Positions 8,256 to 45,333 of a stretch of 56,345 nucleotides of DNA are shown here, in pieces. The position numbers were made by a program, and so were the translations under genes. Below the pieces are notes generated by a model. That model made no database searches. It worked only from the letters and a program-made list of their open reading frames with translations, and was not told where the DNA came from. Origin of the DNA: an uncultured Bacteroidales bacterium (GTDB taxonomy: Bacteria; Bacteroidota; Bacteroidia; Bacteroidales; Muribaculaceae); contig CAMWNF010000003.1 in the NCBI GenBank assembly GCA_947175535.1, positions 1 to 56,345 of the forward strand, written 5' to 3'. The first letter of the stretch is position 1. Each line of letters begins with the position of its first letter.

Positions 8256-9953
8256 TTATCGATTTAGTTCTTTGGTTGCAGAGCCTCCACGCCGTGTAAC
8301 AGTTATCTGACCCGGGACGGGAGCAGCTGTGCGTATGCCATTAAGTTGATAATACTCGACGTTTGAGTCTAAATCAGTAGTGACTTCGTTTATAGCTGTC
8401 GTTATAAACTCACCACCTCCGTTGATATATAAAGGGACTGAGTATTCAGCTCCGTTATATTCTACTGTCATATGACTGGAATAGTGACCGTCTGAAGCGG
8501 TAAGGACGTTACCGTTTACCTGTCCTACTTTTTCCGGAACCTTGATTGTGTAGCCGGTTACATCGGGAGATACCAGAACTCCGTATTGATTGTAGCCATA
8601 TACGACAGGCGTGTATGTTTCTCCTGATGAAAGCGCAACCTTCTTGTCCCGGATTTCTATAGAGGCGATAACATTATCGACCGGAGCGACAGCAACAGCG
8701 AAAAGAGCGTTGACAACAACACGCGGTGCTCCTTCAGGGCGGTCTTTATCGAGACTTGACGTCGACGGCACGTTTTTAACGCCGAGACCATCGACATACA
8801 TAGTCGATGAACCGCCACCATCGAAGTTCATGGCATCAGAGCATCCTATATAACGCATTATAGCCGCAAGTTCGGACTGACTGACACCATGTGAACCGCC
8901 GGCATTACGACCGTCGACAACAGCCATGAAAAGTTTTGACTTGTCGGCGTTATAGCCCACGGCACTGCGCGGTTCGGGACCCGAAAGATGTTCGGGATAT
9001 GATAATGTCTTATCTGTCGCGCCCTTAGTCAATATTCGGGGGAAGCCTCCGAGCACTTCTTTAGCCTGCGTGGACAGCCCGTCTGCCTGAAATGAAATCC
9101 AGGAAGTAATGATATCTCCTTTTTTCAGCTTACGTAGAAAATCACGGGTACTTCCATGCCCCGAAAGCACATAGCCATCTTCGGGAATTTTCATATTTCC
9201 GATGGCCTCTTCAGGGTCTTCAACCACTTCGAATTTAAGACGATTGCCATAAAGGACATTGTCGCCGACAGGTCTAAGCTTCACCTCGACACCATAGGAA
9301 TTTGTTCCGGTATAACCCACATTCCCATACCGGCCGTCAAAATTGGATTGCCATGACGGAGTATATAGAAGCAATTCATCATCCCAGCGCTGTGCGTTTA
9401 GATGAAATGCACAAGTTTTTCCATCAGGAAACTGAAAGTAACCTTCCCACGCTCGGTAGACATGACGGGCAAACGCGGGAACACCTTTTTCATCGAAGAT
9501 GATATAATAAGGGTCTATATCGGCGCCGTCCGTCTCATAATTAGTCAGAAAACCGTTGGCTACACACAGTCCAATACCATTGTACGGAAAATGTGTATTA
9601 AAGAAGTCGGCGTTTACTCCGGCAAAATAGCGTTCGCCAGGCTTATTCATCCGTTCGGCAATTTCAGGAACAGTCTCAAGCATGCGCAGATGATTACCCG
9701 CTTTGGCGGCACGCATCTCGACATATTGATTATTCAAATCAGTTACGGTGTAGTAAATATTATTCACTACGGGAGATTCAGTATCGATAGATTCTATACG
9801 GAGTTCCGTTTCAGTTGTGCCGGGACCTACAGTCGCATGATATAAAGTGTCGACCTTATATTCTGCATTTCCTATAGTCCACTGTGTAGCGGCAGACAAG
9901 TTAATAAGTGAAGCAGATAAAATAGTTGCAGTTGACAACGCAATTCTTTTCAT
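8256..9953 (-). CDS. secreted phosphodiester glycosidase family protein (NAGPA-like, DUF2233)
   Basis: 565 aa with signal peptide (LSASLINLSAA). The central domain resembles phosphodiester glycosidases that uncover mannose-6-phosphate or act on cell-wall sugar phosphodiesters: VNADFF at 113-118, the RSAVGYN segment, VVDGRN, and MNFDGGGSSTM near residues 374-384, which holds the catalytic-site glycines and aspartate. After the domain come Ig-like linker strands. The extreme C-terminus, YYQLNGIR then GQITVTRRGG, resembles the short sorting-like tails seen on secreted Bacteroidales proteins, so surface or outer-membrane delivery is possible. Single-gene unit with its own promoter box upstream. 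The true substrate is unknown. Confidence 0.85.
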   Translation of the reverse strand: MKRIALSTATILSASLINLSAATQWTIGNAEYKVDTLYHATVGPGTTETELRIESIDTESPVVNNIYYTVTDLNNQYVEMRAAKAGNHLRMLETVPEIAERMNKPGERYFAGVNADFFNTHFPYNGIGLCVANGFLTNYETDGADIDPYYIIFDEKGVPAFARHVYRAWEGYFQFPDGKTCAFHLNAQRWDDELLLYTPSWQSNFDGRYGNVGYTGTNSYGVEVKLRPVGDNVLYGNRLKFEVVEDPEEAIGNMKIPEDGYVLSGHGSTRDFLRKLKKGDIITSWISFQADGLSTQAKEVLGGFPRILTKGATDKTLSYPEHLSGPEPRSAVGYNADKSKLFMAVVDGRNAGGSHGVSQSELAAIMRYIGCSDAMNFDGGGSSTMYVDGLGVKNVPSTSSLDKDRPEGAPRVVVNALFAVAVAPVDNVIASIEIRDKKVALSSGETYTPVVYGYNQYGVLVSPDVTGYTIKVPEKVGQVNGNVLTASDGHYSSHMTVEYNGAEYSVPLYINGGGEFITTAINEVTTDLDSNVEYYQLNGIRTAAPVPGQITVTRRGGSATKELNR

Positions 9954-9985
9954 ATAAAAAATCCGGTAATAATGATTAGTTTATA

Positions 9986-9993
9986 CAAAGTTA
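9986..9993 (-). promoter_or_regulatory. -7 box of the phosphodiester glycosidase gene
   Basis: TAACTTTG on the minus strand, 32 bases upstream of the start codon. No good TTG at the expected distance. Confidence 0.55.
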
Positions 9994-10081
9994 CCGAAAT
10001 TTACCCTTATATTCACATACAAAAAGCTGAATATCTAACCAATTTTACAGTTTATTAGCTATAAAGACCCTAAAAATTGAT

Positions 10082-10089
10082 TATTTTTG
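10082..10089 (+). promoter_or_regulatory. -7 box just before rmuC
   Basis: TATTTTTG fits the consensus exactly but ends only seven bases before the rmuC ATG, so the transcript would be nearly leaderless. The -33 region is poor. Confidence 0.5.
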
Positions 10090-10096
10090 CATCTGT

Positions 10097-11281
10097 ATGA
10101 CTATAATTATCATTACCGCACTACTCTCTTTTTTGACTGTAGCCATAGTTCTTATAATTCGGCTGCAAAAGCGCAACCGTGAATTAACGAATGAAAACCG
10201 TCGGTTGGCACTTGAAAACGCCCGCACAGGCGAGCGGCTTAACGTGATGGCAGAAAATGAAGTTCGCTCACAGGAAGCCACACGCGACCGTTTTGCCGCA
10301 ATGGCGGCTGAAGCACTCGAGCGCAATGCCAAAACCCTCAACGAACAAAACCGCATGCAGATAGCCGAACTGCTCGCCCCAATGAAAGAAAATCTCGATG
10401 ATTTCAGAAAATCATATACGGACGCATACGGTAAGGAGAGCGAAAAGCGAGCTATGTTAGAGCATCAGCTGAGCGAACTGTTCAATCTTAACAGGAGCAT
10501 CGGAGAAGAAGCCCGTCGTCTCGGCGAGGCACTCAAGGGAAATACAAGTGTGCAGGGACAATGGGGAGAGATGGTGCTCGAGAACATACTCGAACGCTCG
10601 GGATTGCTGCGTGGTCAGGATTATTTCGTACAGAAAACCGTAGATGCAGAAGATTCCAACGCGCGACCGGACATTGTAATATCCTGTCCGGGTGAAAGGA
10701 ATATCGTTGTCGATTCAAAAGTTTCGATGTCTGATTATCTCCGCATGATTAACGCTCCTGACAGACAGACCGTAAAGGCTGCCGGAGAAGCGCATGTCGC
10801 CTCTGTAAGAAAACATGTAGCCGAGCTTAAACGGAAGAATTATCAGAGTCTTCTCAGCGGACGTAACGCAGACTTTGTCATGATGTTTATTCCTCATGAA
10901 GGAGCATACCTTGCTGCAATGCAACTCGACAACACCTTATGGCAGACCGCCTTTGACAGCCGTGTAATCATTGTGTCACCTACACATCTGGTCTCAGTGG
11001 TGAAACTTGTCGAAATGCTGTGGCGTCAGGACAAACAGAACCGTAACGCCATTGAAATCGCTGAACTCGGAGCAAAAATGCTCGACAAACTAAGCAATTT
11101 TCTCAGCGACTTGGGAAAGATAAAAAGCAATCTCGAATCCGCACAGAAAGCTTACGATGCCGCAATAATAAAATTCGAAGGGCGTGGCGGAATCCGCAGC
11201 ATAGCTGAAAACATGCGCGACAAAGGCATCAAAGGCACCCGTGACCTCCCACCACGAAAAACTCCGGAAAATTATTCCTGA
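10097..11281 (+). CDS. rmuC: DNA recombination protein RmuC family
   Basis: 394 aa. N-terminal membrane anchor (IIIITALLSFLTVAIVLII), then a long coiled coil rich in Glu/Arg (residues about 25-110), then the RmuC core with QGQWGEMVLENILERSGL and RPDIVI...VVDSKVS, which belongs to a PD-(D/E)XK-like nuclease fold. In E. coli RmuC limits inversions at short repeats; the exact activity is not settled. ATG 10097 fits the membrane anchor. The gene overlaps the sigma-factor gene tail-to-tail by ten bases. Confidence 0.9.
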   Translation: MTIIIITALLSFLTVAIVLIIRLQKRNRELTNENRRLALENARTGERLNVMAENEVRSQEATRDRFAAMAAEALERNAKTLNEQNRMQIAELLAPMKENLDDFRKSYTDAYGKESEKRAMLEHQLSELFNLNRSIGEEARRLGEALKGNTSVQGQWGEMVLENILERSGLLRGQDYFVQKTVDAEDSNARPDIVISCPGERNIVVDSKVSMSDYLRMINAPDRQTVKAAGEAHVASVRKHVAELKRKNYQSLLSGRNADFVMMFIPHEGAYLAAMQLDNTLWQTAFDSRVIIVSPTHLVSVVKLVEMLWRQDKQNRNAIEIAELGAKMLDKLSNFLSDLGKIKSNLESAQKAYDAAIIKFEGRGGIRSIAENMRDKGIKGTRDLPPRKTPENYS

Positions 11282-37780: not shown

Positions 37781-37821
37781 GCCGCTTCGCAGCAACTGAT
37801 ATTACCCGAATCACAGCTTGT

Positions 37822-37867
37822 AATCCTGCCCCGGGGAGCACTTCCGCTCTGGGCAGGATTTTTTTTA
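37822..37867 (+). terminator. terminator of the PFP gene
   Basis: Perfect 10-bp stem AATCCTGCCC with GGGCAGGATT (37822-37831 and 37851-37860), then a run of eight T from 37859. It isolates PFP from the following island. Confidence 0.92.
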
Positions 37868-37898
37868 TTGGCGCGTGCGCATTTTTATATTATCTTTG
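37868..37898 (+). promoter_or_regulatory. promoter of the TPR regulator gene and probably the island
   Basis: TTG (37868-37870), 20 bases, TATCTTTG (37891-37898). The box ends four bases before the ATG at 37903, so the transcript probably starts at or next to the A of the start codon (leaderless). Confidence 0.65.
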
Positions 37899-37902
37899 TA
37901 AC

Positions 37903-39591
37903 ATGCACAAATTGTTAAGCCTCATAATAATTTGCCTGACCCTTGGTGCCTGTCACCAGAATAATGAGACCGACACCGCTCTTTCAAACGCTGATACGCT
38001 TATATTCTCAGCGCCTGATTCCGCAGTCACTCTTCTTGACAGTCTATCGACCGGCGACATGTCAGATTTTCAGCGCGCCCGTCACTCTCTCTTGCTTGCA
38101 AAAGCCCGAGCAAAGGCAGGCATCATCTTAGCCGATTCTCCTGCTGACTCTCTGCTGTCTCGTTCCATCGCCTCACTGAGTAAAGCCACCGCCCTGTTTC
38201 AAAACCGCGGCGATAGTCTTGAAACCCAGACACTCTTCTATCTCGGTGTCCTCCTCGGCTACCGCGGTGACTACTCAGACGCACTGATTGCATTAATGGA
38301 ATCAGCCGACATTTCCAAAAATAACAACGACCACTTCTACCTCGCGATGTCCTACCGCGAACAAGCCGAAATATACACCGACTTATATGCTTTCGAACAA
38401 GCTGCCAAGTTTGGAAAGTTAGCTTACGAATCCTTTGTCCAAGCTAATCGCCCGCTCCATGCTAAATGGGAGCAAGTATCATTGATTCCATCACTTTCTT
38501 ATTCTAATCAATATGAGGAGGCGAAAGAACTGATTACCACACTTCTCAATGACAGTCTAATTCTATCCGATGAAACTTTAAGACGACAAGTTTATGTACA
38601 TGCCTGCGAATTGAGCATTAAACTCTCAGATGTTGAAAAGGCTGAAAAATATTTTAATGCTTTTCTTAAAGAAGGGGGCACCCCATCGTCAAGATTATAT
38701 GCTGCGATGACTCGGATTAGTCTTAAAGCGGGCGACATTGATAACGCTAAGCAATTTTACCGTAAGGCGATTTCTAAAGCTGAGGACGACACAGACTCTC
38801 TCGCGGCAAAACTCGCTTTAGCTCAATTGCAAGCAGCGGAAAGCGATTTTCAACATGCATATCTCAATCAGACCAAGGTTTACAACCGATTAAATACCAA
38901 AGTAAATCGCTTGACAACTCATCCCTATACGTCTCTGTTGAGCGAACATTACCACACAAAAAGCATTGAACAGACCGCCCAGAGACAAATTGCAGAACAA
39001 CGCATATGGATTGGCGTTCTTGCAATAATTATGCTGATAGCATTCTCATGTTTACTGTCACTATATTACCGAAAACGTTTGCTTCGCAAAGAGTTAGAGC
39101 TTGAGCATATTTTTTCAGACATGCAGGCTCTGCAGTTAAAACTGGAAAGTCTTATTATTCAGCGTACTCCGGACATTGAAAATCCACGCTTGAGCGCATT
39201 ACCTGCAACTTTATTAAATACTCTATGCAAATCAAGATATATCTTATCTCCCGGAGATAAAGGTTACAAAGATATCGGAAAGATTGCCGTTGATTTTATC
39301 GATACTATTAAATCTTCAGAAATATTACGCGATCTCGAACTGTATATAGATCAAACAAATAATGGATTAATGACCCGTTTCAGAGAGCAAATCACCAATT
39401 TACCTTCGAGCTATTATAACCTCGCCCTACTGACTTTTATCGGTTTTTCGAATGATTCTATTTGCTGCATATTAAAAATTGGTGATGGAGCAGCCCGAAA
39501 CGCCAGAAGCAAAATTCGAGCGGCCATCAACTGTGCAGATTGCCCCGATAAAGAGCTTTTCTTGATCTATTTCAAGAAAATGAGAGGCTAA
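37903..39591 (+). CDS. membrane-anchored TPR lipoprotein with C-terminal helix-turn-helix-like domain
   Basis: 562 aa. Lipobox CLTLGAC at the N-terminus. Residues about 50-340 form tetratricopeptide repeats (TLFYLGVLLGYRGDYSDALIALMESADI and others). One membrane helix lies at about 368-388 (IWIGVLAIIMLIAFSCLLSLYY), then a coiled segment and a C-terminal domain with LALLTFIGFSNDSICCILKIGDGAARNARSKIRAAI, which resembles a LuxR-type helix-turn-helix. This layout is that of Bacteroidales TPR-transmembrane regulators: a periplasmic sensor and a cytoplasmic DNA binder. The first third has host-like GC, the rest is AT-rich. It sits before the envelope cluster and is its likely regulator. Confidence 0.8.
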   Translation: MHKLLSLIIICLTLGACHQNNETDTALSNADTLIFSAPDSAVTLLDSLSTGDMSDFQRARHSLLLAKARAKAGIILADSPADSLLSRSIASLSKATALFQNRGDSLETQTLFYLGVLLGYRGDYSDALIALMESADISKNNNDHFYLAMSYREQAEIYTDLYAFEQAAKFGKLAYESFVQANRPLHAKWEQVSLIPSLSYSNQYEEAKELITTLLNDSLILSDETLRRQVYVHACELSIKLSDVEKAEKYFNAFLKEGGTPSSRLYAAMTRISLKAGDIDNAKQFYRKAISKAEDDTDSLAAKLALAQLQAAESDFQHAYLNQTKVYNRLNTKVNRLTTHPYTSLLSEHYHTKSIEQTAQRQIAEQRIWIGVLAIIMLIAFSCLLSLYYRKRLLRKELELEHIFSDMQALQLKLESLIIQRTPDIENPRLSALPATLLNTLCKSRYILSPGDKGYKDIGKIAVDFIDTIKSSEILRDLELYIDQTNNGLMTRFREQITNLPSSYYNLALLTFIGFSNDSICCILKIGDGAARNARSKIRAAINCADCPDKELFLIYFKKMRG

Positions 39592-39814
39592 AACGCTATG
39601 AATCTATTGCTTGCTTAATACACTAAACCTAATAGATTGTAAATCAAGTTAATACATAAAAATTACATGTGAGTTTTATCAGTCAAGACTAATCAACTGA
39701 TTAACAAATACTTTTACTTGCCGTTTTTCAATTAAATTACGTCGGAATTACATCATATTATTGTAATTCATCTTTTGGATGCATAATTTAGCGACATAAA
39801 AATCATCAAAAATT

Positions 39815-40186
39815 ATGCAACTCATTAAAACCATTCTAATCTTTTTCGTTATCTGTTGTACTTACACAATTACAATTTACGCAGATGATTCTTCGGAAGA
39901 AATAATAATATTACCTCCAATCAATAAAGATAAACCATATAAACCCCAAGCCCCTTCGCGCGTACAACTACAAGCATATTACAATGGAATAGGAATTACC
40001 ATTACTTCATCCGTGACCTTACAAGCTGAAGTAATGATTTATGATAATCTCACCGAAGAGCAATATTACAACGGCGTAGCAACGCTCGCGCCCTCGTTCT
40101 TCTGCGAAATTCCGGTTAATGCAAAATCGGTCTCAATCATTATAAATACCCCATCTGCAGAATATCAGGGAGTTCTTTATAAATAG
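39815..40186 (+). CDS. small secreted DUF3244-like protein (123 aa)
   Basis: Signal peptide (IKTILIFFVICCTYTITIYA), then an acidic start and one small beta-sandwich-like domain: RVQLQAYYNGIGITITSSV, VMIYDNLTEEQYYNG, FFCEIPVNAKSVSIIINTPSAEYQGVLY. This pattern fits the DUF3244 family, small exported proteins found in Bacteroidales next to O-antigen-ligase-like genes. One cysteine lies in the mature part. It could be the exported substrate of the cluster or a structural companion. The gap to the ligase-like gene is 19 bases. AT-rich like its neighbours. Confidence 0.72.
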   Translation: MQLIKTILIFFVICCTYTITIYADDSSEEIIILPPINKDKPYKPQAPSRVQLQAYYNGIGITITSSVTLQAEVMIYDNLTEEQYYNGVATLAPSFFCEIPVNAKSVSIIINTPSAEYQGVLYK

Positions 40187-40205
40187 AAATCAAGTCCGCG
40201 TAACC

Positions 40206-41774
40206 ATGAAGCAATTGAGCAAATATTGTCAGTATTTTACATTGGAAAATATCGTTGTTGCAGCACTTTGCATCACAGCCTTATTTGCCAAGTCAAAATT
40301 AATGACAGACCACGCGATAGTTCCGAAACAGTTATACACAGGTCTCGTTCTGTCGCTGTCTATCGTTGCAATAGCCGTAAAACTTTTGTTGGGAAAAGGC
40401 TTTAAGATCACACCTTACTCATGGTCAGTTATCATTACGGCGATATGCAGCGCGGAGTCTCTTTACGCAATCTTTCAATTTTGCGTAACCCGACTTTTAG
40501 GTCTTGACGTATTTATCTGCGGAACATTCGAGAATCCCGTAGGATTAATGTCAGCATTATGTCTTGCTCTTCCATTTACGCTGTATGCTATTGCGCAGAC
40601 TTGCCACAAAAAGACGTTTATCGCCGCCGCTATAGTTATCGTTTTAGCAATTTTTGCAAGTCAGTCACGCACAGGCATAATCGCAGCATTATTAGTTCTC
40701 CTTTGCTTCGGATTAAGATTTTCAAAACTATCGCTTTCAAAACGATTGTTCATTGTTGCAGGATTAACAGTCATACTTATTGCCGTTTCGTGTCTGATTA
40801 ATACAGATTCTGTCACCGGGCGTCTTCTGATTTGGCGTGCTTCATTACCCTTGATTTCTGCCACGCCCTTCTGCGGCTATGGCATAGGTGCTTTCGGGCG
40901 ATTATATATGGAGGCTCAGGCAGAGTATCTTAGTGCTTTTTCGCCTGACAGCGATTATGCAATGCTCGCCGGCAATTCGATAGTGCCGTTCAACGAATAC
41001 ATCGATTTTTATCTGAATTTCGGTATACTTGGTCTTTTAATATTTATTGGATTTGTTTCTTTCCTGATTTTTGCGTACTGCCGCGCTATCGAATCATATA
41101 AATCTTATGCTCTCTATTCTTTAGGAGCATTGGCATTCATTTCTCTCTTCTCCTATCCGTTCACCTATCCCTTTACTTATGTAATCATCCTTATATCAAC
41201 GCTTTTCATAATCAAGAACTCTTTTAAGTTCTCTCCGGTAAAACTTTTGAAACCTGCTGTTGCCTCAATCATGCTGTTGATTGGAGTCTTTTGTTCATAC
41301 AAAGTCTATGACCGTATTGACGCTGAATTACAATGGGGTAAAGCGTTTATAAAAGGAGACCTAAATGCTTATGCAATTTTGAAACCGCGGTTGGAGCATA
41401 TTCCGCATTTCCTTTATAGCTACGCCTTTGAAGCATACAAAAGAGAAGATTATGATTTAAGCCTTTCGTTAGCTGAACAATGCAGCAACGATCTGTCTCA
41501 TTACGACCTTGAATTGCTTTTAGGCGACATTTATCTCAAAAAAGAAAACTATGACAGGGCAGAATTTCACTATAAACATGCAGCAGAAATGATACCTTGT
41601 AGATTTACACCTCTCTTGGCATTATATGATACATTTACTGCATTAGGAGATGAACACATGGCCAAGGATATTGCTGAATATATTTTAGCTAAGCCGATTA
41701 AAGTTCATTCTCGTACAGTTGGACTAATTAGGCATAAAATGCAAAAGGCTTTAAAAGTTACCTCTAACAAATAA
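40206..41774 (+). CDS. O-antigen ligase / Wzy-like membrane protein with C-terminal TPRs
   Basis: 522 aa. About ten to twelve membrane segments in the first 375 residues, then two to three TPR-like helical repeats (YDLSLSLAEQCSNDLSHYDLELLLGDIYLKKENYDRAEFHYKHAAE). The ligase-type loop is visible as TGRLLIWRASLPLISATPFCGYGIGAFGRLYMEAQAEYLS, resembling the PF04932 (RfaL/Wzy) domain, where an R-x-x-x-W segment and a G-Y/H-G-x-G motif are conserved. Family members transfer or polymerise glycans on lipid carriers at the periplasmic face; some relatives glycosylate proteins. The companion genes here are protein-modifying, which makes a protein-directed role conceivable. Confidence 0.8.
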   Translation: MKQLSKYCQYFTLENIVVAALCITALFAKSKLMTDHAIVPKQLYTGLVLSLSIVAIAVKLLLGKGFKITPYSWSVIITAICSAESLYAIFQFCVTRLLGLDVFICGTFENPVGLMSALCLALPFTLYAIAQTCHKKTFIAAAIVIVLAIFASQSRTGIIAALLVLLCFGLRFSKLSLSKRLFIVAGLTVILIAVSCLINTDSVTGRLLIWRASLPLISATPFCGYGIGAFGRLYMEAQAEYLSAFSPDSDYAMLAGNSIVPFNEYIDFYLNFGILGLLIFIGFVSFLIFAYCRAIESYKSYALYSLGALAFISLFSYPFTYPFTYVIILISTLFIIKNSFKFSPVKLLKPAVASIMLLIGVFCSYKVYDRIDAELQWGKAFIKGDLNAYAILKPRLEHIPHFLYSYAFEAYKREDYDLSLSLAEQCSNDLSHYDLELLLGDIYLKKENYDRAEFHYKHAAEMIPCRFTPLLALYDTFTALGDEHMAKDIAEYILAKPIKVHSRTVGLIRHKMQKALKVTSNK

Positions 41775-41805
41775 ACTATAATTAAACATTACCCAATCAT
41801 CTGTG

Positions 41806-42516
41806 ATGAAACTATTAAAATTAATCTCTATTTTTGTCCTAATTATTTTTACGAGTTGCCAATCGGAATTACTTTTAGATGAACCTGAACCAAGTTTGCC
41901 ATACCTTAATATTGATGGGGAAATTGATATAAACAATCTTTCAGCTGAGGAACTGCAAATTTTGTTTTTGGCATCTCAGCGTTTTCAACTTATTTGCAAT
42001 GAGGATGGTTTGTATGAAATAAGTCCTAAAAATTACAAAGAGTTAAGCATCTCGGAAAATATTTTTTGCTTTTTCCAAGAAATTGTAGAATCATCAAATG
42101 ACAACTGTGATATAAGAAGACATAATCTTATCTCACGTGATCCAATTGGTTACGGCAGCGATTGTGTTGTTTGGGCCATTGCAAATGCTACAGGCATGAG
42201 CTACTATGATGTTTTTAATCACGTTCTCGCATCTACCGGATTTGTTGGTGTTACGAAAGATAACATGTTTTCCGTTTTAGGAGATCCTCGCTATGGTGGA
42301 AGCGCAATGGATGTAAATTCTTTTTCTTCACCGGAAGCCCTATCTACCCGATACGTAATCGTATATCATGATCCGGAATATATGGATGAGAATACTTATC
42401 ACGCAGTAAACGGCTTTTTACAAACATCAAACGATCAGTTTATTTGCAAAGACTATCAGAATAATTGTTCACGTATAGTAGACTCAGATATGATAAAAGC
42501 TATCTATTATTATTGA
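41806..42516 (+). CDS. papain/C39-like cysteine peptidase lipoprotein
   Basis: 236 aa from ATG 41806 (a GTG directly precedes it). Lipobox LIIFTSC. The catalytic-like cysteine is C120 in GSDCVVWAIANATGMSYYD, at the head of a helix as in papain-type and C39 peptidases; the histidine is H199 in YHAVNGF, followed by D216 in ICKDYQN. All three are in the order Cys, His, Asp. The product is probably an outer-membrane or periplasmic lipoprotein. The substrate is unknown; the neighbouring small secreted protein is a candidate. The family call rests on the motif layout only, so confidence is moderate. Confidence 0.62.
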   Translation: MKLLKLISIFVLIIFTSCQSELLLDEPEPSLPYLNIDGEIDINNLSAEELQILFLASQRFQLICNEDGLYEISPKNYKELSISENIFCFFQEIVESSNDNCDIRRHNLISRDPIGYGSDCVVWAIANATGMSYYDVFNHVLASTGFVGVTKDNMFSVLGDPRYGGSAMDVNSFSSPEALSTRYVIVYHDPEYMDENTYHAVNGFLQTSNDQFICKDYQNNCSRIVDSDMIKAIYYY

Positions 42517-42529
42517 AATAGTATAAATT

Positions 42530-43327
42530 ATGATACTACGATTATTATTAGGAATAATAGCATTATTATTAGTTGATTATGCTAATGCCAAGAATTTACA
42601 CGGCATCTTTAGAATGTCTTTTTCTGAAGCCGAAGATTCAACATTGATTACACCGATGAGTGTATTTAATGAGTACAAAAATGATTTAAGTGACTGTGAT
42701 ACAAAAATAACAATTCCGAATGATTTCGAACCTATTGACTTAAGAACTTCATCTTTCTACATAAGGAGCTCGCCTTGTTTCCCGGATACGCCCCAATCAA
42801 TATATCCTTTGGGCCTACAAAATCGGGATAAAAGCGTTATGATGCTATTTCCAACGCTTTATTTCGACATGGGCAATGAAACGTTACGCCGGGGAGCAGA
42901 AATAGAAAAAGAAATTAGAGCTAATTTTAAAGATTGTGACCTTGATGTCAATCCGTACGTTGCAATCTATAATGTTAAAGGGAAAAAAAATGCCGCCAAT
43001 GCAGATACGCTGGCAATCTATGAATTAAACCCTAAAAACTGTTCAGCTCTATATTCTGAAGAATTCCCTTACTGCATAGGCATTTATCTACGTAAAGCCG
43101 AGCATCCCGGTTTGCTGCTTAAATTACTTTTGAACAAAGATACTTACACCGATAAAGAAAAATATATCAAACTTATGCTCGACACTATAAAGTACGGCGA
43201 CAATTCAACCCGTCTAACAATGATAGAGGAGCAATTGAAAGGACATTACACTGATTTAGGCTTCCCATCTGTTCCTCGTCACCCGTATAAAGCCCAACCG
43301 GTAATGGATGAAATTTCTACGGATTAA
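42530..43327 (+). CDS. secreted protein of unknown function (265 aa)
   Basis: Signal peptide LLLGIIALLLVDYANA with likely cleavage before KNLHG. The mature chain has five cysteines (SDCDT, SPCFP, KDCDL, KNCSA, PYCIG), a central region ending in DVNPYVAIYNVKGKKN, and a C-terminal helical part (LLLKLLLNKDTYTDKEKYIKLMLDTI). No family was recognised. It lies 13 bases after the peptidase gene and 26 before the transglutaminase-like gene, so it belongs to the same transcript. It may be the substrate or a chaperone of the cluster. Confidence 0.7.
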   Translation: MILRLLLGIIALLLVDYANAKNLHGIFRMSFSEAEDSTLITPMSVFNEYKNDLSDCDTKITIPNDFEPIDLRTSSFYIRSSPCFPDTPQSIYPLGLQNRDKSVMMLFPTLYFDMGNETLRRGAEIEKEIRANFKDCDLDVNPYVAIYNVKGKKNAANADTLAIYELNPKNCSALYSEEFPYCIGIYLRKAEHPGLLLKLLLNKDTYTDKEKYIKLMLDTIKYGDNSTRLTMIEEQLKGHYTDLGFPSVPRHPYKAQPVMDEISTD

Positions 43328-43353
43328 CCAATTGCTAGTAAAATATCCTTTCA

Positions 43354-45333
43354 ATGAATCATAGTTTAAGACCAATCGTATATTTTTTGTGGATATCAAT
43401 TTTATTTTTAAAAAATACCGGCTGTACCACAAATTATTCGCCAATAGAATCTTCACTGAACATCTCCGGTTCAAATCAAAAAGAACTGCAGAAAGTACTT
43501 GACTATTATGCTGACGACTCATTAAAACTTGAAGCGGCTAAGTATTTGATTGAAAACATGCCGGGACATTTTTCATTTGTTGATACCATTCCAGTAAACC
43601 ACTTCTATGATTCTTTGGATTCACTCCTCACTGTAATGCAGGATCAGCCATATTCTGAAATTGCTGATTCCGTAAAGAGTATATATTATCGCAACAAGAT
43701 AGAAGATTTAGAAACAATTGATGATATTTGTGTTATCAAATCAGATTTCTTAATCGATAATATTGATCGTGCATTTGAGGTTTGGGAAAATGTTCCGTGG
43801 TGTCGCGGACTTAATTTTGATGAGTTCTGTGAATATATCCTTCCTTACAAAGTAGCGGAGACCCAAGAACTTAAGCCATGGCGAGCAGAATATAATGCCA
43901 TCATTGCCGATTCGCTGGAACGAATGATGAGTTGCTCACTTTATCGTATTTCAGCGTTTCAAGCGGCTGAATTTGTCAATAATTGTCTCAAAAATGAATT
44001 CTGTCGCGATCCCGATGATCAGACCATGCCGCCAATGTTCTATCGACCTCTGACTCGTCTGAGAGTACCCTACAGCACATGCGAAGACTTATGCCTTTCA
44101 GGTATCAGCATTTTTCGGGCAGCAGGTATTCCGGTCGCCATAGATTATGTACCGTTATGGGGGTATGGGAATCGCGGTCATTCGTGGGCTATAGTACGCG
44201 CTCCTAACGGTCATGATATGCCTTTTGTCCCTATTCACATGTCTCCTTATGTACAGCATAAGATAAACGAAACAATTTCTAAAGTCTATCGTCGAACCTA
44301 TGCCCGCAACCAAGAATTAGTAAAATTAAATGATGGCTCACGATTTGTGCCCGAGACATTTAGGAATATTTTTCAGCGTGACGTTACACCGCTATATGCC
44401 GATACTAAAAATATCGACTTAAAAATCAATATTCCCGATAATGAATATGCCTATCTGTGTACAACAAGCCGTTCGTTCTGGCAGCCAATAGCGTTTACCC
44501 AAGTAAAAGACGGAAAGGCAAAATTTATTGATATGGGGAAAGGATGTATCTATCTACCTGTCTATTTCGACAAAAATGGTAATATGATATCATTTACAGA
44601 GCCTTTCAAACTCGACTGGGATGGGTCAATTCAATACTTAAATGCGAATTTTGACAAAACGATTAATGCGACTTTGTATCGCAAAGGTCCATTGCTCGAA
44701 TATGCGTGGCGGGTGGCAGTTATGATGGAGAACGGTCAATTCGAAGCATCTAATTCTCCGGATTTCAAACAGTCTGTCACCGTGGGTTCTGTTACTACTC
44801 CAGCCGACCAAGCCGGCGAAATAAATATCCCTGACAGCATAGGAAGTTATAGATATTGGCGGTATATCCAACGCGGAGATTCCGCAAAGTGCTATCTTGG
44901 TGAATTAACTTTTATCAATGATAGCAGTAACATAACCGATAAAGGCAAAGTAATTGGTAATTTTATAGAATCCCAAAATGATATTCTAAGTGATGGTAGA
45001 AGAGCTTTTGATGGAGATGTGCTTACCCCCCTTTCTTTTACTCGCCCGAATGAAGCGTGGGTTGGTCTTGATTTCGGGAAACCTGTATCTATTGATAAAA
45101 TTCGTTATGTACCCCGAAGCGATGGAGATATGATAGAACCCGGGGATGCATATGAGCTTAAATATTGGCACAATGGTATGTGGCAGACTCTTGACAGAAA
45201 GGTCGCAACAACCGTTTCAATAGATTTCGAAAACATCCCATCCAACACTATATATATTCTAAGAAACTTGACGAAAGGAAAAAGCGAACGGATTTTTATG
45301 ATTGACGAAGAAGGCAAGCAAATTTGGTGGTAA
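43354..45333 (+). CDS. transglutaminase-like lipoprotein with discoidin-like C-terminal domain
   Basis: 659 aa. Probable lipobox ILFLKNTGC. The central domain has the transglutaminase-core order: C243 in the helix CEDLCLSGISIFRAAGIPVAI, H276 in NRGHSWAIV, and D288 in NGHDMPF. After beta-rich linker regions the last 150 residues resemble an F5/8 type C (discoidin) sandwich: RRAFDGDVLTPLSF, WVGLDFGKPVSIDKIRYVPR, WHNGMWQTLD. Such architecture occurs in Bacteroidales exported proteins and could crosslink, hydrolyse or amidate peptides at the surface. Last gene of the island; the aldolase follows after 158 bases with its own promoter box. Confidence 0.78.
   Translation: MNHSLRPIVYFLWISILFLKNTGCTTNYSPIESSLNISGSNQKELQKVLDYYADDSLKLEAAKYLIENMPGHFSFVDTIPVNHFYDSLDSLLTVMQDQPYSEIADSVKSIYYRNKIEDLETIDDICVIKSDFLIDNIDRAFEVWENVPWCRGLNFDEFCEYILPYKVAETQELKPWRAEYNAIIADSLERMMSCSLYRISAFQAAEFVNNCLKNEFCRDPDDQTMPPMFYRPLTRLRVPYSTCEDLCLSGISIFRAAGIPVAIDYVPLWGYGNRGHSWAIVRAPNGHDMPFVPIHMSPYVQHKINETISKVYRRTYARNQELVKLNDGSRFVPETFRNIFQRDVTPLYADTKNIDLKINIPDNEYAYLCTTSRSFWQPIAFTQVKDGKAKFIDMGKGCIYLPVYFDKNGNMISFTEPFKLDWDGSIQYLNANFDKTINATLYRKGPLLEYAWRVAVMMENGQFEASNSPDFKQSVTVGSVTTPADQAGEINIPDSIGSYRYWRYIQRGDSAKCYLGELTFINDSSNITDKGKVIGNFIESQNDILSDGRRAFDGDVLTPLSFTRPNEAWVGLDFGKPVSIDKIRYVPRSDGDMIEPGDAYELKYWHNGMWQTLDRKVATTVSIDFENIPSNTIYILRNLTKGKSERIFMIDEEGKQIWW

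Follow-up and report, generated by a model that had tools for sequence, protein, structure and literature searches.

What a row of six envelope genes might accomplish together, and which of their products would be the one acted upon, is the question raised by this locus, no described function for such gene sets having been found in the literature searched. The original prediction regarded them as a likely dedicated pathway that exports a small protein, trims it and covalently modifies or attaches it, the DUF3244 protein being the one in which cleavage or added groups were to be sought. The features concerned, all within the whole stretch of 56,345 nucleotides that was analysed (the window), are the following:

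37868..37898, + strand: Bacteroides-type promoter-like site TTG-N20-TATCTTTG, an exact match directly 5' of the TPRreg gene
37903..45333, + strand: cluster of six envelope genes (TPRreg, DUF3244-like, LIG, CYS, EXP, TGL)
37903..39591, + strand: TPRreg, with a lipoprotein-like N-terminus, TPR repeats, one TM-like segment and a C-terminal LuxR/NarL-like HTH
39815..40186, + strand: small exported protein, DUF3244-like by profile comparison, encoded next to the regulator
40206..41774, + strand: LIG, WaaL/PglL-like polytopic membrane protein with C-terminal TPR
41806..42516, + strand: CYS, papain/C39-like lipoprotein of 236 residues
42530..43327, + strand: EXP, exported, without known family, with a predicted Mog1/PsbP-like fold
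43354..45333, + strand: TGL, transglutaminase/PNGase-like lipoprotein with an F5/8C-like, carbohydrate-binding-like tail

The six genes are real, and their predicted layout—one direction, mostly short gaps—was confirmed. Exact matches to the TTG-N20-TATCTTTG motif, which resembles a Bacteroides-type promoter, number four on the + strand of the window, one of them before TPRreg and none in the gaps within the cluster; since that site lies very near the ATG of TPRreg, translation may really begin at a later codon. Concerning anti-phage defence, PADLOC gave no match at E 0.01 for five proteins.

The ligase-like and transglutaminase-like proteins

The Wzy_C domain of LIG scores 49.4 bits, above the curated cut-off of 31.7, and is common to the WaaL O-antigen ligases and the PglL O-oligosaccharyltransferases (7tpg, 9rmk), together with conserved arginines, an alignable HN/FNE region and exported proteins encoded nearby; unlike these enzymes, LIG carries C-terminal TPRs. 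In an alignment of 22 hand-chosen sequences, LIG keeps two arginines, as against the conserved R215 and R288 of E. coli WaaL: R155, present in 20/22 (one Lys, one Thr) and probably equivalent to R215, judging from order and motif, and R206, present in 22/22, the region of which was aligned with 7tpg. The catalytic histidine (H338 in WaaL, H349 in PglL) is, however, replaced by Phe or Leu in all 22 sequences, the window protein having Phe262 within the motif PFNEY, and position 264 is acidic (Glu or Asp) throughout.

As a control, 18 other Wzy_C proteins of relatives were aligned, eight fetched loci being without alignment. His was found in 14 of the 15 proteins with a letter in the column, the remaining one (L201) having Glu; in L190 a His lies two columns off beside a gap, and L197 and L211 fall short of the column. 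The LIG-type proteins in the same alignment have Phe in 5/5. Such proteins occur in 36 of 198 Muribaculaceae genomes, many of them near NVEALA, DUF3244 or transglutaminase-like genes, and only three loci with the close LIG type were found in the collection of named genomes.

Concerning TGL, its C243 (18/19) and H276 (19/19 in the hand-chosen alignment) align with the core Cys and His of the transglutaminase-like superfamily and of peptide:N-glycanase (3esw, 1x3w). The column of the PNGase Asp holds Asp in only 4/19 sequences and Val in the window, so that the Cys-His-Asp triad of PNGase is not conserved here; a further difference is the carbohydrate-binding-like tail fused to TGL. The window protein has no PF01841 match at E 0.1; its relative in L124 matches PF01841 at 4.1e-6, above the cut-off, and the TGL core profile matches PNGase at 5e-4.

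Recurrence of the gene set and exchange of cargo

The neighbourhood of LIG was surveyed at 37 loci, obtained from 39 matches by leaving out three (a 67-residue piece with a stop in G036, the TPR part only in G157 and a 104-residue piece in G163:C64) and adding L164 from another family. TGL lies within 8 kb of LIG at 23/37 loci, papain-like proteins accompany it at 11/37 and NVEALA/propeller/S26 genes at 15/37, the two latter kinds never together (0/37) and neither at 11/37, the neighbour counts being lower bounds because many loci stop at contig ends. A recurring envelope unit that combines a regulator with small exported proteins and with three proteins resembling enzymes, as originally proposed, is thus borne out; where CYS and EXP would stand, LIG often has other genes beside it.

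These other genes define the loci with NVEALA, 6-bladed propeller, DUF1573 and S26 peptidase genes plus an O-antigen-ligase-like protein. Such loci, L124, L135 and L136 among them, have the same backbone as the window, made up of LIG, TGL, the TPR regulator and the DUF3244-like protein. The window differs in having CYS and EXP instead, the NVEALA, propeller, DUF1573 and S26 profiles giving no match at E 0.01 among its kept ORFs from 30000 to 52000. The family names are those of Pfam, with the NVEALA and propeller matches of L116 lying below the Pfam cut-offs.

The LIG tree (36 sequences) shows that its clades largely follow the cargo class. On the 30 rows assigned to a class, the four cargo classes need three changes, which is the minimum, and all five groups need eight, versus a mean of 19.0 after shuffling, with 0/200 shuffles as low; L049 was assigned to the CYS/EXP class by EXP alone, and L062 and L177 to the NVEALA class by S26 alone. 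The distances of LIG and TGL also correlate (20 loci, Mantel r 0.60, 0/5000 permutations as high). Modularity, cargo exchange and gene association are thus shown for the LIG sets.

The reading favoured here, with a probability of about 0.4, is that the window carries one form of a modular Muribaculaceae envelope device for maturation or display with exchangeable cargo, and that EXP acts as a partner to CYS and probably inhibits it. The recurring parts would be the membrane-spanning TPR/HTH regulator with its DUF3244-like neighbour and LIG, often with TGL; the exchangeable part would be the exported cargo, in the window CYS plus EXP. All the biochemical steps are those that we infer: the regulator would sense an envelope signal and switch on the operon, CYS and EXP would be exported through Sec, and EXP would bind CYS and restrain it in the periplasm, inhibiting whatever peptidase activity it may possess, until display. 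The TPRs of LIG would dock the cargo, and LIG with TGL might mature or anchor it at the outer membrane by some putative attachment chemistry. Only tentatively can a further step be taken, namely that LIG and TGL form an undescribed Bacteroidales device that matures or anchors exported proteins, not glycans, in which LIG would do without the WaaL histidine (acidic residue 264 perhaps taking its place) and be specialised for cargo clade by clade, with TGL as an exchangeable helper; the cargo would perhaps comprise a papain-fold enzyme with its partner, NVEALA peptides and other small exported proteins.

CYS, EXP and the alternative readings

CYS has a papain fold. Its residues C120, H199 and D216 are invariant in the six hand-chosen sequences aligned and, from their order and the secondary structure, are putatively catalytic. 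The count of CYS genes excludes three weak matches (G013, G114, G192), four more from another search and, in G019, a degenerate piece that contains four stops. Neither the window CYS nor that of L045 matches any Pfam family at E 0.1, hence none matches C10; those of L046 and L048 have no Pfam match at E 1, that of L164 matches only PF15644, at 0.044, and comparison of the CYS profile with the sequences of solved structures gave nothing (best E 0.62). In profile comparisons nothing convincing linked CYS to C4p (which resembles 9jg8/9jdd), EXP to the small exported protein families SX3 or SX6, or the DUF3244-like protein to SX6; the matches were confined to low-probability N-terminal stretches.

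The gene next after CYS encodes EXP in 8/8 cases, one CYS being broken (L050). Of the expectation that the genes belong together, this part stands, CYS never having been seen without EXP; EXP and TGL are also found where the other genes are missing. A comparable arrangement is that of the Bacteroides C10 operons (bfp/bfi, btp/bti), in which, according to the excerpted account in PMC3462683, genes of exported papain-like proteases are co-transcribed with adjacent genes of small exported, inhibitor-like proteins described as staphostatin-like. CYS differs from those proteases in having no Pfam match and EXP from those small proteins in its predicted Mog1/PsbP-like fold, and LIG and TGL are without counterpart in that excerpted account. 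The structure models of this analysis were built from 10 and four sequences, and one row is misaligned in alignment A14.

EXP could instead be the substrate, trimmed by CYS and attached or modified by LIG and TGL, with its multiple copies serving as multiple substrates. It is exported, it is multicopy beside LIG (three in L046, four in L047 and, in L049, three ORFs, one with two EXP stretches) and its polar residues D57, E128, D159, K189, H192 and K198 are invariant in the 18 hand-chosen sequences aligned; moreover, pglL genes adjoin pilin genes, their likely targets, in 21/31 cases, as stated in the part of PMC3643930 consulted. We nevertheless consider this rather doubtful, since EXP is also present in genomes without a LIG or CYS match and since a close relative has, at its pfk-fba site, a lone EXP without any LIG, TGL or CYS gene there, which shares 196/264 amino acids with that of the window at dN 0.17 and dS 3.2 (saturated), pointing to purifying selection.

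In another view CYS and EXP would be an effector-immunity pair in bacterial competition, with a papain-fold enzyme at the surface or released, a periplasmic immunity protein and orphan immunity copies elsewhere. This is unlikely: ordinary peptidases and transporter peptidase domains match CYS at equal or higher Z, its 236 residues have no apparent delivery domain and no Pfam domains, and the EXP core is conserved, not diversified (18 sequences). EXP has no match in the plasmid and phage collections.

That the exported DUF3244 protein is what CYS trims and what LIG and TGL covalently modify or attach is quite improbable. Its gene is indeed codirectional with LIG at a 19 bp gap and is met again, together with LIG and TGL, in loci of the NVEALA type; it was not found, however, near the other seven CYS genes (six loci), where EXP is the constant neighbour, and the fixed pathway proposed around it is therefore not sustained. 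It adjoins the TPRreg gene in 8/8 testable loci, one divergent—10 matches less L063 and L106 at contig ends—six of these being seeds picked by eye and two, the window and L176, found by the profile search itself. Since the gene goes with the regulator rather than with the peptidase, processing of its product is not the best reading. The window protein matches no Pfam family, PF11589 included, at E 0.1, and its profile matches the DUF3244 structure 3sd2 weakly (E 0.0055); TPRreg scores 44.7 bits against the BT3442 family (cut-off 940). As far as the excerpts go, BT2221 of B. thetaiotaomicron, listed as DUF3244 (PMC10434189), is the btiZ product, for which PMC3462683 gives a predicted role in inhibiting a protease.

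That unrelated genes came together here by chance is hardly credible: the cluster is an AT-rich island (GC 0.35–0.43 versus 0.52 in the flanking pfk and aldolase gene, fba) at a site with other gene content in the relatives G593 and G003 (both genes searched in 31 genomes, the site inspected in three), but the set recurs, with LIG, CYS, EXP and TGL together in G019, in G163 and on another contig of the same genome as the window, CYS, EXP and LIG as consecutive genes in L164 of another Bacteroidales family, and strong CYS matches in the four Muribaculaceae genomes that have the closest LIG type.

Returning to the modular device, LIG-type proteins would by domain be annotated as O-antigen ligases, an annotation that such a device would correct. 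With the WaaL histidine lost and the LIG clades largely following the cargo, what was a series of DUFs now poses a question open to experiment, namely whether proteins are attached or matured at the surface of gut commensals by the LIG device.

The six-gene cluster and its site

The ORF check of the window found the six genes (37903..45333, forward strand, between pfk and the aldolase gene fba) as the original prediction had described them: a TPR/HTH regulator (TPRreg), a small exported DUF3244-like protein, a WaaL/PglL-like membrane protein (LIG), a papain/C39-like lipoprotein (CYS), its exported neighbour (EXP) and a transglutaminase/PNGase-like lipoprotein (TGL). The first two genes are separated by 223 bp, and the gaps from the DUF3244-like gene onward measure 19, 31, 13 and 26 bp. 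The motif for Bacteroides-type promoter-like sites matches exactly upstream of TPRreg and again upstream of fba (identity assigned by eye) 3' of the cluster, with no exact match in the gaps within the cluster; terminator-like sites in the cluster scan occur at chance level. The GC content of the cluster is 0.35-0.43 versus about 0.52 for pfk and fba.

The content of the pfk-fba gap varies among relatives (loci L272 and L273), consisting in genome G003 of small proteins and a protein resembling the TPRreg C-terminus, and in genome G593 of EXP and three other genes, of which one looks TonB_C-like and another radical-SAM-like when read by eye. The pfk of G593 is 97% identical to that of the window, and its orphan EXP gene, located between pfk and fba, lies between two copies of a ~70 bp sequence (L273:2672-3776) with a counterpart in the window at 37799-37869, 3' of pfk, as if a cassette had been gained or lost at this site by recombination between direct repeats. 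This orphan gene appears to be under purifying selection, with dS saturated.

Recurrence and exchange of cargo

The six-gene envelope cluster is confirmed and extended to a recurring device with other versions of the cargo, i.e. the exchangeable exported proteins at LIG loci, elsewhere. Among 198 genomes of the family, LIG has matches in 36, TGL in 90 (many of these matches being distant, limited to the core and located in longer ORFs), EXP in eight and CYS in seven, four of the latter strong. These four (G000, G019, G132 and G163) are the same genomes that possess the closest LIG type, a coincidence whose chance we estimate at near 1.6e-8 under independence of the genomes, an assumption that does not hold. 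Of 393 genomes of the order, seven contain EXP and six CYS (four weak); at L164, from a genome of another family, CYS, EXP and LIG are consecutive, TGL not being seen on this contig, which stops soon after CYS.

TGL is found at most 8 kb from LIG in 23 of the 37 LIG loci, CYS near LIG in five, and C4p, a second papain-like family resembling the C39-like structures 9jdd and 9jg8, in six. NVEALA, propeller or S26 genes are present at 15 loci; a papain-like gene together with an NVEALA-class gene at none of the 37, and neither of them at 11. The C4p loci have small exported proteins of their own, SX3 and SX6, mostly multicopy. TPRreg, DUF3244-like, LIG and TGL are common to the NVEALA-type loci and the window, as judged by profiles with seeds chosen by eye in these loci. 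In the maximum-likelihood tree, LIG mostly groups by cargo class, with the L164 protein apart from the other CYS-type rows and the C4p clade weakly supported; TGL tracks the cargo class less strictly, that from L047 belonging to the NVEALA-type group.

Decayed TGL and C4p genes occur in LIG clusters as separate fragments only (L051:7765-8451; L055:11796-12346). The NVEALA-like peptides at L176:10941-11195 and L178:3990-9460 carry an (A/E)N(V/I)EAL motif past the hydrophobic N-terminus; both loci also have an S26 peptidase gene, and the motif could be its cleavage site. Standalone TGL-type genes (L110, L111, L113, L114 and L117) adjoin a riboflavin-synthesis-like gene, identified by eye from its N-terminus.

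The CYS-EXP pair

In CYS, C120, H199 and D216 are invariant, and chains of papain-like and C39 peptidases can be aligned to residues 109-236; the structure model is weak, and Foldseek gave no match to it with an E value of 0.001 or lower. Several CYS relatives have acidic residues after the lipobox Cys, a putative signal resembling that for surface export of Bacteroidetes lipoproteins. The EXP fold is predicted to be Mog1/PsbP-like, with moderate confidence.

EXP is the next gene for all eight CYS genes (window, L045, two at L046, L047, L048, L050, where CYS is broken, and L164). Three genomes that lack matches to CYS and LIG (G003, G073 and G196) also have EXP, and it occurs as double-domain and TonB_C-fused proteins. 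With CYS accompanied by EXP in all eight cases, and EXP also alone, the pattern fits CYS as a putative peptidase and EXP as its obligatory inhibitor or immunity partner. Exported inhibitor-like proteins co-transcribed with C10 proteases in Bacteroides, as described in PMC3462683, offer a precedent; one of them, BT2221, is given as a DUF3244 protein in PMC10434189. The same asymmetry also agrees with EXP being a substrate and with the two forming an effector-immunity pair, both of which are kept as rival readings.

At L126:7063-12196, three exported proteins in tandem, each with an EXP domain, follow a TPR regulator gene; the one scanned (8735-10414) has TonB C-terminal domains, too, and LIG, TGL and CYS have no match in the surrounding 18 kb. 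On contig 1 of the window's own genome (L127:6042-9445), a TPR regulator gene adjoins a gene for a two-EXP-domain protein, the other cluster genes being absent there.

LIG and the proteins around it

TPRreg has a single TM-like segment and a C-terminal region with profile matches to LuxR/NarL-type DNA-binding domains. The TGL core resembles peptide:N-glycanase, its Cys and His being conserved and the Asp position not, and the tail resembles the carbohydrate-binding domain 2yb7 (E 6.7e-22), which we take to be CBM62.

LIG is, by domain scan, a Wzy_C protein with TPRs at the C-terminus. Its domain profile aligned the WaaL structure 7tpg (E 2.4e-6) and, weakly, the oligosaccharyltransferase 9rmk (E 0.016), in both of which the His of the HN motif aligns with a Phe of LIG. 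At that position all 22 LIG proteins compared have F or L, and at residue 264 all have Glu or Asp; the two arginines are kept in 20/22 and 22/22. As a control, the relatives' Wzy_C proteins outside the LIG family have His in 14 of the 15 with a letter in that column, and one further protein has His beside a gap. The two Arg and one His examined are the three residues named for WaaL and PglL in PMC3643930. LIG should not be labelled an O-antigen ligase before a test. In G000 (91% complete), the only two Wzy_C matches are both LIG proteins, and this search found no ordinary WaaL.

The original choice of the DUF3244 protein as the one exported, trimmed and modified or attached is not supported, and the attachment chemistry of the cluster is putative. 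The window holds one of the cargo versions in which this recurring envelope device occurs.
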